Below are positions 47,070 through 50,450 of a DNA stretch of 64,000 nucleotides, one piece after another. The position numbers and the translations under genes were made by a program. The first letter of the stretch is position 1, and every line of letters begins with the position of its first letter. The stretch is from Hydrogenobacter thermophilus TK-6 (lineage in GTDB: Bacteria > Aquificota > Aquificia > Aquificales > Aquificaceae). Below the pieces are notes generated by a model. It searched no databases and was not told the origin of the DNA. It was given only the letters and a program-made list of their open reading frames with translations. The DNA lies in NCBI RefSeq assembly GCF_000010785.1, contig NC_013799.1, forward strand, positions 1,302,001 to 1,366,000, read 5' to 3'.

Positions 47070-48713
47070 ATGGCTGTAGCACATGCACCTGCAGGAACTT
47101 GGTATGGTGCCACTCTTAAAGAGTGGATATTCACCACCGACCACAAAAAGATAGGTATGCTCTACTTTGTTACCGCTTTAGTGTTCTTTGTGGTGGCGGG
47201 ACTATTTGGACTCCTTATAAGGCTTGAGCTTACAAAGCCGGGTATTCAGCTACCTGGGCTTTTCGGTCAGGAAGGTGCGGACCTGTACAACTATCTCCTT
47301 ACCGGACACGGGGCTGTTATGCTCCTGTGGTGGGCTGTAGTCATATGGACGGGTGCTTTCTCCAACTTCCTTATACCTCTCATGATAGGAGCAAGAGATG
47401 TTGCCTTTCCAAGACTAAACGCTTTTAGTTATTGGGCTTTCCTTGGAGCAAGTCTTCTCGTCCTTCTAACTTTAATACCCGGCAACTGGATAAAGATGCT
47501 CTGGACAGGATATCCTCCTTACGCTCTTAACGACAATGCCGGACCTACAGCTCTCTACACTTTGATAGTTGACCTTTACGGAGTGTCTGCCACCGCAGGC
47601 TCTGTAAACTTCATAACCACCATCATAAGAATGAGGGCAAAGGGTCTGGGATGGACAAAGCTCAACCTCTTCGTACACGCAATTATGGCTACAAACCTCA
47701 TACAGCTCTTTGGGGTGCCGGCGCTTCTCGGAGCGGTGAACCTCCTTCTCCTTGATAAGTACTTCCACATGAACTACTTTAATCCTGCTCTGGGTGGAGA
47801 TCCCCTTGTTTATCAAAACATCTTCTGGTTTTACTCTCACCCAGCGGTTTATGTGATGATACTTCCAGCCTTTGGTGTATTTTCAGAAGTGATAGCCACC
47901 ATGGCGAGAAAGCCTATCTTTGGATACATATCCATGATGATAGCCATCTACGCAATAGCCTTCATAGGTTTTGAAACATGGATACACCACATGTTTGTTT
48001 CTGGCGTTCCCGACTGGGCAAGGGTACTTTTCTCCTACACCACAGTGCTTGTAGGAGTCCCAACAGGTATAAAGATCTTCAACTGGGTGGCAACACTTCA
48101 CAAGGGAGCCATAAGGTACAACACCCCCATGGTATTTACCTTTGGTGGTATACTCATGTTTTTAATAGGGGGGCTAACGGGCATTCCCAACGCCATGGTT
48201 TCCATAGACCTTGGCATATCCGACTCCATGTTTATAGTGGGGCATTTTCACTATGTTTTAGGTATGGCTCTGACTTTTGCAGCCTTCAGCGGTATATACT
48301 ACTGGTATCCTAAGGTCACCGGTAGGATGTACTCGGAAGGTCTTGGCAAACTTAGTTTTTGGCTCATGCTAATAGGAGCTAACATCTTTTACTTCCTTCA
48401 GATGGTTACCGGAATACTGGGAGAACCAAGAAGGTATGCGGATTATCCTCCTATACCTACATGGGTGACTCTCAATCAGGTGCAAACGGTAGGAGCGGTG
48501 CTGCTGGGCATAGGCATACTCGTATCTCTAATAAACTGGGTAATTAGCCTAAAAGGTCCAAAAGCGGAAGACAACCCTTGGAAGTCCCCTTCCCTTGAGT
48601 GGTCCATGACGGACACGCCGGTAGGACCCCACAACTTCAAGAAAACACCCGTGGAAGTTCCAGAAGACTGGCATCCCTATGCCTTCTACAAGGGATACCA
48701 CGCCCATGTGTGA
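47070..48713 (+). CDS. coxA: Cytochrome c oxidase subunit I (A-type haem-copper oxidase)
   Basis: Twelve membrane helices carry the haem and CuB ligands: LTGHGAVMLLWW for low-spin haem, FYSHPAVYVMILPAFG with the His-Tyr pair, IHHMFVSG, and VVGHFHYVLGMALT (the His pair is in GHFHYV). The 547-residue length and the FGxxSHPxVYxxxLP form fit the A family. A rho-independent terminator follows the stop. Confidence 0.96.
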   Translation: MAVAHAPAGTWYGATLKEWIFTTDHKKIGMLYFVTALVFFVVAGLFGLLIRLELTKPGIQLPGLFGQEGADLYNYLLTGHGAVMLLWWAVVIWTGAFSNFLIPLMIGARDVAFPRLNAFSYWAFLGASLLVLLTLIPGNWIKMLWTGYPPYALNDNAGPTALYTLIVDLYGVSATAGSVNFITTIIRMRAKGLGWTKLNLFVHAIMATNLIQLFGVPALLGAVNLLLLDKYFHMNYFNPALGGDPLVYQNIFWFYSHPAVYVMILPAFGVFSEVIATMARKPIFGYISMMIAIYAIAFIGFETWIHHMFVSGVPDWARVLFSYTTVLVGVPTGIKIFNWVATLHKGAIRYNTPMVFTFGGILMFLIGGLTGIPNAMVSIDLGISDSMFIVGHFHYVLGMALTFAAFSGIYYWYPKVTGRMYSEGLGKLSFWLMLIGANIFYFLQMVTGILGEPRRYADYPPIPTWVTLNQVQTVGAVLLGIGILVSLINWVISLKGPKAEDNPWKSPSLEWSMTDTPVGPHNFKKTPVEVPEDWHPYAFYKGYHAHV

Positions 48714-48725
48714 TGGTGCACCCTT

Positions 48726-48748
48726 CTCCCCCTTTCGGGGGGCTTTTT
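48726..48748 (+). terminator. Intrinsic terminator after coxA
   Basis: CCCCC (48728-48732), a TTTC loop and GGGGG (48737-48741) form a stem followed by CTTTTTAT. The hairpin closes the A-type oxidase operon; read-through into the V4R gene, 16 nt later, would still be possible because that gene has its own AAAGGAG but no clear promoter. Confidence 0.8.
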
Positions 48749-48763
48749 ATAAAGGAGTATAAC

Positions 48764-49210
48764 ATGGAAATGGATGAGTTAGACCTGCTTTATAAAACAA
48801 GATTAATGTTAAAAGAAAAGGGGTTTGTAGTATTGAAGGAACCAGTGCAGGAATTTTACAGGAACCTCTTTAAGTTTACCGGGATAGGGCTTGGGGGATT
48901 GCTGAACATGGCAGGCAAGAGCGCCGGACAGATAGCAGGAAAATTATTAAAGGAGCTTGCTTCCCTGTTAGAAACTGGTACAGTATCTGAGATTAAAAGG
49001 TGGGAAGTTACAGATAAGGGAGTAATTGTGGGTGTGAAGGGGAGCGTTTTTTCAGCAAGTCAGGATAGTAAAAAACCTATGTGCATACCACTTCAGGGTG
49101 GATTTGCTGGAGTTATGGAGGCTTTCTTTGGTGGAAGGTGGAGCTGTAAAGAAATAGAGTGCGAAAGCATGGGAGAAGATACATGCACTTTTGAGATAAG
49201 GAGGGAATAA
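48764..49210 (+). CDS. V4R (4-vinyl reductase) domain protein
   Basis: The 148 residues match the V4R/XylR-N small-molecule domain: an alpha-helical first half with FYRNLFKFTGIGLGGLL and a C-terminal GGFAGVMEAFFGGRWSCKEIECESMGEDTCTF that, in quoted parts, shows the Cys-rich ending typical of the domain (CKEIEC, DTCTF). Such domains bind small ligands or bacteriochlorophyll intermediates, and in regulators they sense aromatics. AAAGGAG precedes the ATG. Located between two oxidase operons and next to a hemerythrin, it may be a sensor or carrier there; the ligand is unknown. Confidence 0.8.
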   Translation: MEMDELDLLYKTRLMLKEKGFVVLKEPVQEFYRNLFKFTGIGLGGLLNMAGKSAGQIAGKLLKELASLLETGTVSEIKRWEVTDKGVIVGVKGSVFSASQDSKKPMCIPLQGGFAGVMEAFFGGRWSCKEIECESMGEDTCTFEIRRE

Positions 49211-49212
49211 CT

Positions 49213-49518
49213 ATGATAGAGTTTGACAACAGTCTCATCACACATGTTGAAGAGATGGATAAGCAACACTTGAGACTGGTAGCTCTTTTAAATAATACCT
49301 ATGAGCCCTTAAAAATAGGTTATCCTGAACTGGAAAGCCACAGGAAAGTGCACGAGATTTTTCGCAGGGAAGTTAAGAACTTAGCTCCATATGTAGAGAG
49401 AGGAGACTTAAAAGCCTTTAGAGAGGCTCTATCTTACTCATGGGGATGGTTATACAATCACATTGCCAAAACGGACAAAAAGTACGGAATTTATGCAAAG
49501 GAGAGGGGTTTGATATGA
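49213..49518 (+). CDS. Bacteriohemerythrin-like protein, shortened
   Basis: The 101 residues retain DKQH (His19), the pair His43/His47 in ESHRKVH, and HIAKTD (His83, Asp88), five of the seven iron ligands of hemerythrins. The usual HFxxEE stretch that supplies the other His and Glu is absent: LLNNTYEPLKIGYPEL joins the end of helix A straight to the segment before the HxxxH helix, about 30 residues short. Oxygen binding may therefore be lost or changed. It starts 2 nt after the V4R gene and overlaps the next by 4 bp. Confidence 0.8.
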   Translation: MIEFDNSLITHVEEMDKQHLRLVALLNNTYEPLKIGYPELESHRKVHEIFRREVKNLAPYVERGDLKAFREALSYSWGWLYNHIAKTDKKYGIYAKERGLI

Positions 49519-49691
49519 TGAGCGATGAAGGCAAGAAGAGGCTTTTGGGGATACTTTTAGGTCTTCTAGTGCTGGCAGGATTCATGACAGGTTTTTTGGG
49601 TATGGCGCTTTCTGAAAAAAACAGGGAATATTTTATTTACAGACTGAAGAACATAAAAAAGGTGCCTTACATAGCTCCTGAGAAAAGATAA
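49515..49691 (+). CDS. Small single-span membrane protein
   Basis: The 58-residue product starts at the ATGATG that overlaps the hemerythrin stop (49515 or 49518). It has one membrane segment (about 9-30) and a basic tail ending VPYIAPEKR. The end overlaps the next start by 1 bp. I recognise no family; its place in a coupled four-gene set suggests a membrane partner. Confidence 0.55.
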   Translation: MMSDEGKKRLLGILLGLLVLAGFMTGFLGMALSEKNREYFIYRLKNIKKVPYIAPEKR

Positions 49692-50221
49692 TGGACCAGT
49701 TCAGCGTAGGTCACATACTCATGATCTTTTCAAGAGTTTTTGAGATGCTAAGTTTTGGTATAATTCTGCTCTTCGTTTTTAAAGGTATTGGAGTGAGATA
49801 CATATTTTTCGTGGCGGGTATAACCCTTCTTGGCATTTTCGTGTCTGTAATAAACTTTTTCTCAAAGAAGTATCCTGTAGAATACTCCTTTGCCTTTGAA
49901 ACTTTTGTATTCTTTGTGGTACTTGCTACAGCTTTTTACGCCTTCATGGAGAAAAGGGAAAAGAAGTTTTTACCACCTCCGCCCCCTCCAAAAGGTACCC
50001 GATGCCCAGTGTGTAGCGCTTTTGTCAAAAAGGAAGACGATTACTGCGTGGCAAGGGAGGGTGAAGAACTGCTCTATTTTGACTCCTGCGAGCACCTTGA
50101 GAGATTTATAGAAGACCTGGAAGCTTACAGAAAGCTGAGAAACATAAGCCTCAAGAGGGTGGAAGGCATCTACAGGAAAGGGAGCAGGGCGTGGGATATA
50201 GTAGAAAATAAGATTTCTTAG
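49691..50221 (+). CDS. Membrane protein with C-terminal zinc-ribbon-like motif
   Basis: Three membrane segments (about 8-30, 35-55, 62-82) are followed by a Pro-rich linker and CPVCSAFVKKEDDYCV, a Cys-x-x-Cys pair with a further Cys downstream in DSCEHL. The 176-residue protein has no family I know. It ends the V4R-hemerythrin set, 40 bp before the promoter of the ba3 oxidase. Confidence 0.55.
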   Translation: MDQFSVGHILMIFSRVFEMLSFGIILLFVFKGIGVRYIFFVAGITLLGIFVSVINFFSKKYPVEYSFAFETFVFFVVLATAFYAFMEKREKKFLPPPPPPKGTRCPVCSAFVKKEDDYCVAREGEELLYFDSCEHLERFIEDLEAYRKLRNISLKRVEGIYRKGSRAWDIVENKIS

Positions 50222-50261: not shown

Positions 50262-50290
50262 TTGACATTATAAGAAAATCCTTATATATT
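50262..50290 (+). promoter_or_regulatory. Sigma-70 promoter of the ba3-type oxidase operon
   Basis: TTGACA (50262-50267) and TATATT (50285-50290) are spaced by exactly 17 bp. The predicted start at about 50297 leaves a leader of 37 nt with AAAGGAGGTG before the IIa ATG. Confidence 0.85.
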
Positions 50291-50333: not shown

Positions 50334-50450
50334 ATGGAAGGACACGAGGAGTTCTTTCCAAAAGGTGCGGTAGCCTTTTTAGTGTTCATGCTTGCCTTTT
50401 ATGCCCTGGTATGGCTCTCCATCTACTTTACACTTTTGGCAAGGGGGTAA
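50334..50450 (+). CDS. ba3-type cytochrome c oxidase subunit IIa (38 aa)
   Basis: This very short gene starts at an ATG 7 nt after AAAGGAGGTG. The peptide has a polar start (MEGHEEFFPKGAVAF) and a single membrane helix (about 12-34) ending LLARG. Its size, one-helix build and place directly before subunit II match subunit IIa of the ba3 oxidase of Thermus and related oxidases, where it completes the helix that subunit II lacks. The next ATG follows 4 nt after its stop. Confidence 0.8.
   Translation: MEGHEEFFPKGAVAFLVFMLAFYALVWLSIYFTLLARG

Follow-up and report, generated by a model that had tools for sequence, protein, structure and literature searches.

Genes P3 and P4 as the conserved core of a tail behind the A-type oxidase operon of Hydrogenobacter thermophilus TK-6, preceded by two shortened genes

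Four small genes lie between two cytochrome oxidase operons in Hydrogenobacter thermophilus TK-6, which raises the question of whether they form one functional module and which of the two operons they belong to. The genome is a single contig of 1,743,135 bases (assembly 99.99% complete), and we analysed a stretch of 64,000 nucleotides, positions 1,302,001–1,366,000, referred to here as the window. On the upstream side the genes are flanked by an A-type cox operon with the order cox3-SCO-cox2-cox1, which ends at 48713, and on the downstream side by a ba3 operon whose CoxIIa gene starts at 50334. A first-pass annotation of this DNA had described a coupled set consisting of a V4R protein, a hemerythrin lacking the HFxxEE segment, a 58-aa membrane protein and a three-helix membrane protein with a Cys-x-x-Cys ribbon, and had proposed that these could be an oxygen- or NO-handling or sensing module that serves the oxidases. 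The coupling itself is as described: all four open reading frames are present on the plus strand, with a gap of 2 bp between V4R and the hemerythrin gene (Hr), an overlap of 4 bp between Hr and P3 and an overlap of 1 bp between P3 and P4. The features of the region, in window coordinates, are as follows.

47070..48713, plus strand: cox1, A-type oxidase subunit I, final structural gene ahead of the tail
48723..48742, plus strand: terminator-like hairpin and T-run between cox1 and the tail genes, from comparison across loci
48764..49210, plus strand: V4R-domain protein, 148 aa, with zinc-site residues C107, E130, C133 and C141 complete and 16 codons missing at about 48960, from Pfam and alignment
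49213..49518, plus strand: Hr, bacteriohemerythrin, 101 aa, with a 96-bp in-frame deletion at about 49310–49315, from Pfam and alignment to relatives
49515..49691, plus strand: P3, 58-aa protein with a single TM segment; conserved behind A-type cox1
49691..50221, plus strand: P4, 176-aa three-helix membrane protein with a C-terminal YHS/TRASH-like domain (C105, C108, D131, H135)
50262..50290, plus strand: sigma-70-like promoter match (11/12) before the ba3 operon, from a promoter scan
50334..50450, plus strand: CoxIIa of the ba3 oxidase, below the Pfam cut-off; flank, outside the tail

A reading of the four genes as a defence system was rejected, as PADLOC returned no match for V4R, Hr, P3 or P4. 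The oxidase cluster of Aquifex aeolicus, in the portion of its published description used here (PMC3128077), shares with the window the adjacent A-type and ba3 operons, the SCO genes and the subunit IIa gene. In that portion IIa is the one gene reported to separate coxA1 from coxB2, whereas the window has four extra genes there.

To ask which of these genes travel with the oxidases, we searched 136 genomes of the phylum. The full order V4R-Hr-P3-P4 occurs in one of them. A-type cox1 genes that are 78–100% identical to the window cox1 (group 1) gave 14 rows, to which we added by hand a fragment at a contig end in G028. P3 follows cox1 in 13 of the 14 rows, the 14th (G040) being cut by the contig end, and P3-P4 stands behind cox1 in all 14 loci that can be read (13 rows and G028). 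Conversely, 14 of 64 P4 rows fall within 10 kb of an A-type cox1, and all 14 are in group-1 loci. V4R was within 10 kb of an A-type cox1 match in 3 of 82 rows, a count that is the same (3/82) when ba3 cox1 is included, and Hr came that close to a cox1 match (A-type or ba3) in 1 of 63 rows. These linkage counts cover V4R rows to about E 6e-7 and P4 rows to about E 1e-8 and leave out second pieces of split Hr, V4R and P4 matches; the P3 count excludes a G053 row that is the second piece of a split match. V4R lies between cox1 and P3 in three loci (window, G028 and G050) and Hr does so in the window only. P3 and P4 remain paired in loci that have neither V4R nor Hr, as behind cox1 in G035, G036, G038, G046, G051 and G052, with cox1 at such loci again 78–100% identical. 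Scattering of the genes in relatives, which the first-pass annotation had named as the observation that would count against its module, is thus what the linkage counts reveal for V4R and Hr and not for P3-P4. Consequently we rejected a conserved four-gene module, for which we also found no evidence relating to NO, and we retain the link to an oxidase for P3 and P4 only. The tail is probably part of the A-type operon and not of the ba3 operon; P3-P4 is its conserved core.

The association has its own limits. None of the 62 rows of a second kind of A-type cox1 has P4 within 10 kb, which means that some A-type oxidases do without an adjacent P4. On the side of the association, within family f1 a P4 homologue is present in 46 of the 47 genomes that have cox1A and in 12 of the 17 that lack it (Fisher p 0.004, from hand counts uncorrected for relatedness). 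In G057, P3-P4 is located apart from cox1, and in G051 an extra 507-aa open reading frame is inserted in the cox1-P3-P4 region. A same-genus genome, G025, lacks the whole block cox3-SCO-cox2-cox1-V4R-Hr-P3-P4 and has ApbE followed by CoxIIa instead (L118, 7859–9512); the A-type operon and its tail therefore behave as one unit of gain and loss.

How the tail is expressed bears on its role. Of the 13 group-1 loci tested, the window included, 12 have a hairpin and T-run in the interval from cox1 to the first tail gene, compared with 0.83 expected from shuffled sequences. Folding of the window hairpin region as a single sequence gave a z of 0.05, and it is only the comparison across loci that is convincing. 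The V4R start codon of the window comes only 21 bases behind the hairpin, which makes read-through from cox1 the simplest route of expression. A scan of the region at a looser threshold found two promoter-like sites where 3.2 are expected by chance. The ba3 operon has its own 11/12 promoter match, suggesting that it is transcribed separately, with the reservation that such matches are no commoner than chance. We therefore propose that the tail would be the distal, read-through end of the A-type cytochrome c oxidase operon, and that the hairpin may pass only a fraction of transcripts, which would keep P3 and P4 below the level of the structural subunits.

P4 has no Pfam match at E <= 1, NosL included, and a search of the whole genome with Pfam YHS (PF04945) gave no match at P4. 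Eight of 30 P4 family members do match YHS at E <= 5, with a best E of 3.4e-4. Because relatives match the family and the window protein does not, P4 is, as judged from its sequence, YHS-like and not a YHS member. C105 and C108 are invariant across the 30 sequences, while D131 and H135 are at least 90% conserved. The copper-responsive YHS domain of a Mycobacterium phlei adenylyl cyclase is described, in the section of PMC4626032 used here, as having four metal ligands at 178, 181, 204 and 208. The putative ligands C105, C108, D131 and H135 of P4 have this same YHS spacing (3, 23, 4; x-2-x-22-x-3-x). P4 differs from YHS/TRASH domains in that C,C,D,H replaces D/C,C,C,C, with an aspartate and a histidine in place of the two C-terminal cysteines, and in that the domain is carried on a three-helix membrane anchor in a protein below the PF04945 detection level. 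The three helices and the CxxC domain of the earlier description are thus borne out, whereas a YHS/TRASH-like domain fits better than a Cys-x-x-Cys ribbon.

A structural model of P4, which is of good confidence (pLDDT 88.7), consists of three helices and a small alpha/beta domain. The predicted C-terminal domain aligns over residues 92–174 with NosL, the copper chaperone of nitrous oxide reductase, with Z scores of 7.1 and 6.5, and L24e-type ribbons score 4.2–4.6; Z values under 8 may reflect no more than a common arrangement. Foldseek gave no match at E <= 0.001 (best E 0.23), with NosL and L24e chains among the top rows, and a comparison of the sequence with the PDB yielded ten matches, none better than E 0.23. 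Whereas NosL is a periplasmic lipoprotein, P4 is a polytopic membrane protein whose domain is probably on the cytoplasmic side by a positive-inside reading, and membership in the NosL family was rejected for want of a Pfam NosL match. Literature matches listed for Cox11, YHS, NosL, copper and cytochrome oxidase assembly contained nothing on the P4 family.

A paralogue of P4 that is unlinked to the oxidase lies behind pyrF and is intact in G025, G027 and G028. In the window genome this paralogue is frameshifted within the YHS-like domain (L098, 8271–8722; genome positions 815264–815700). A scan of an 84,980-species collection with two short patterns, which can miss distant relatives, returned five P4 loci, four of them labelled Aquificaceae/Aquificota and one a MAG labelled Acidobacteria. 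The contig titled Acidobacteria that carries P4 is RFFP01000015.1, and contig G039:C23 holds the Aquificaceae cox1-P3-P4 arrangement. The Acidobacteria label is a probable misassignment.

P3 also has no Pfam match. It has one hydrophobic segment (hydropathy 2.43), in agreement with its first description as a small membrane protein, and its sequence is strongly conserved, including the motif NRE(Y/H)F..(R/K/M)(L/I)KNI. A search placed P3-like single-TM open reading frames behind 6 of the 62 second-kind A-type cox1 rows, direct reading revealed them in 4 of 8 such loci, and three of those four share the motif REYF..(R/K)L.NI. The second A-type cox1 of the window genome itself (868185–869753, minus strand; L125) is followed 49–192 bases on by a 47-aa single-TM open reading frame in a P3-like layout. 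No P3 open reading frame was found between the abutting A-type and ba3 operons of G001, G009, G010 and G023.

What do P3 and P4 do for the oxidase? No match to Cox11 (PF04442) or Caa3_CtaG (PF09678) was obtained anywhere in the window genome, with controls matching in 1 and 2 of 14. A YHS-like domain on a membrane anchor, next to a copper enzyme and in a genome with neither of these families detected, suggests that the pair handles copper, or senses copper status, while the oxidase is assembled. We propose that the P4 domain would face the cytoplasm and bind copper or another soft metal through its Cys-Cys-Asp-His set, that P3 would dock P4 to the oxidase, and that together they may help load the copper centers, or check their loading, as the enzyme is assembled. 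The reading we favor, which we hold tentatively, is that P3 and P4 help to assemble the A-type oxidase by handling copper, a function that we infer, and are encoded on a read-through tail whose V4R-Hr part is an accessory undergoing erosion. Several points run counter to copper: the second-kind oxidase has no P4 nearby, the pyrF-associated paralogue is unlinked and the domain is probably cytoplasmic. Copper loading of oxidases, as known, takes place on the face opposite to the cytoplasm. That P4 with P3 is an undescribed copper-insertion or copper-status factor which replaces Cox11/CtaG in Aquificaceae A-type oxidases, using a membrane-anchored YHS-like domain with an unusual Cys-Cys-Asp-His set, we rate as unlikely. 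P3 could instead be a structural subunit and not a docking factor. A possible though somewhat doubtful alternative to assembly factors is that P3, and perhaps P4 too, belongs to the A-type oxidase itself as a small stoichiometric subunit, similar in role to the small subunit IV of other aa3 oxidases. The P3-like frames behind second-kind cox1 genes with their shared motif, as well as the strong conservation of P3, would be expected of such a subunit; its absence between the abutting operons of four genomes and the separation of P3-P4 from cox1 in G057 would not. The hairpin in 12 of 13 loci also speaks against it by placing expression below that of cox1, and since P3 and P4 are probably made below the oxidase subunit level, helpers fit better than structural parts. 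If the assembly-factor reading with copper handling is right, the pair would hint at how haem-copper oxidases are built in early-branching bacteria, in a genome with no detected Cox11 or CtaG, and in either case this conserved pair is the part of the locus that deserves experiment.

We now turn to the two genes that are not conserved in the tail. Hr matches Pfam Hemerythrin (E 1.6e-7; 32.3 bits versus a cut-off of 25.3) over profile columns 58–123 only, and 49 of the 136 genomes contain a match to the window Hr. Its closest relative, a full-length protein of 133 aa in G026 of the same genus, is 85% identical over shared columns, and compared with it the window gene lacks exactly 96 bp, or 32 codons, with the frame kept. 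The absence of the HFxxEE/HxxxEE segment noted earlier is therefore real, and its cause, which had been overlooked, is an in-frame deletion from a normal Hr. The deleted stretch is helix B with its His and Glu ligands (HxxxE), the equivalents of H54 and E58. The di-iron site of bacteriohemerythrin has seven ligands (H,H,E,H,H,H,D). Window Hr keeps five of them, H19, H43, H47, H83 and D88, which are invariant in 11 aligned sequences. With two of the seven ligands deleted, the protein would no longer be able to form a di-iron site, and a normal di-iron O2-binding role is unlikely. Homology to single-domain bacteriohemerythrins remains clear apart from the 32 missing residues with their two ligands, and the deletion was found in the window genome only. 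We rejected an undescribed short hemerythrin family, as full-length proteins exist in relatives of the same and of other genera; on its alignment Hr is an ordinary bacteriohemerythrin with an internal deletion, and the same-genus relative removes the idea of a new family. The deletion junction lies at a run of A that relatives have on either side of the missing segment, which makes replication slippage at a short repeat a plausible origin.

Traces of Hr occur at other oxidase loci. In G026 the full gene has a ba3 cox1 remnant and the SCO end as neighbors (L099, 14328–15057), and no intact A-type or ba3 cox1 was found. A frameshifted Hr in G053 is followed by decayed P3 and P4. The tail position in G050 lacks Hr, and in G028 the slot between the V4R end and the P3 start holds a 36-codon open reading frame whose last codons resemble the end of Hr (L086). 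The last 24 bases of this frame match Hr well, and its core score was reached by 2, 77 and 42 of 500 shuffles for three Hr genes. The traces in G026, G053 and G028 suggest that Hr may once have been more widely linked to oxidases.

The V4R domain was correctly recognized at first (Pfam PF02830, E 1.6e-14; 54.2 bits versus a cut-off of 31), and it was again a shortening that escaped attention: the G028 and G050 orthologues and 14 further aligned homologues have 16 codons (48 bp) that are missing, in frame, from the window gene. All 17 aligned sequences share C107, E130, C133 and C141, and these residues align without gaps to C155, E178, C181 and C189 of MopR. The zinc site of the MopR family consists of three cysteines and one glutamate, according to the portion of PMC10715001 used here, and V4R has this C/E/C/C set, so that a MopR-like zinc site is predicted. 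The cysteine spacing of 26 and 8 is also that of C206, C232 and C240 in MsvR, where these cysteines are reported, in the text of PMC3729527 that we draw on, to affect redox-dependent DNA binding. The match to the NCBIfam MsvR equivalog is confined to residues 58–145 and falls far below its cut-off (E 5e-6; 26.3 bits versus 220), which does not place V4R in that family. Unlike MsvR and MopR, V4R has no DNA-binding or ATPase domain and is missing the 16 residues before its zinc-site part; a Pfam search detected neither a DNA-binding nor an output domain.

Both deletions are in frame and in adjacent genes, and translation would remain coupled through to P3-P4, which would explain why only in-frame deletions survived. 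We suggest that V4R and Hr were added later as an optional pair of accessories, probably a zinc-stabilized ligand sensor and an oxygen-binding protein, and that each lost an internal segment in the window genome. From these sequences V4R-Hr look like an accessory pair being lost. Relaxed evolution was tested by dN/dS, which is low for both genes (0.076 for V4R and, against G026, 0.066 for Hr, with dS near saturation), so that the short forms may still be in use. Purifying selection at this level does not favor simple decay unless the deletions are recent.

Several other explanations of the shortened genes have to be weighed against an eroding accessory pair. One that we regard as a genuine, if not the leading, possibility is that V4R and Hr are pseudogenes on their way out whose frame is kept because out-of-frame deletions break P3-P4 translation. 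Two in-frame deletions in neighboring genes are what it predicts, as are the frameshift of Hr in G053, its absence at that place in G050 and the 36-codon frame in G028, but low dN/dS in both genes and the retention of the zinc ligands and most iron ligands are hard to reconcile with it. The opposite view, that short Hr is a selected three-helix protein with a single iron on the remaining His/His/His/Asp ligands, is improbable. H19, H43, H47, H83 and D88 are all kept, the frame is intact with a dN/dS of 0.066 against G026 (dS near saturation), and the model still shows a three-helix chain. However, that model is of moderate confidence (pLDDT 75, pTM 0.52), the deletion is in one genome, full-length Hr persists in relatives, and the window protein has six specific changes compared with three in G026, one of them a Leu-to-Pro replacement at the deletion edge. 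Sequencing or assembly artefacts are very improbable: the deletions are known from one assembly of the species, but it is a single-contig assembly that is 99.99% complete, and both are clean and in frame with their neighbors retained.

The oxygen- or NO-sensing module for the two oxidases that was originally proposed, comprising V4R, Hr and the membrane proteins, fares little better and we consider it improbable as well. The position of coupled genes between two oxidase operons, the MopR-type zinc site and the resemblance of V4R to the redox regulator MsvR (E 5e-6), and the neighbors of Hr in G026 (what is left of a ba3 cox1) and in G053 (decayed P3-P4) all lend it some credit. Against this stand the rarity of cox1 proximity (Hr 1/63 rows, V4R 3/82), the internal deletions in both genes and the lack of a DNA-binding or output domain in V4R. 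Our searches found no literature that combines V4R and hemerythrin, and among the matches listed for hemerythrin with cytochrome c oxidase and Aquificales there was Sulfurimonas work only. In the eroding accessory pair that we prefer, with two adjacent coupled genes shortened only in frame, one can read how operon coupling shapes the decay of genes. Elsewhere in the phylum, G054 carries three related hemerythrin genes on three contigs (L100, L111 and L112), which suggests duplication or mobility.
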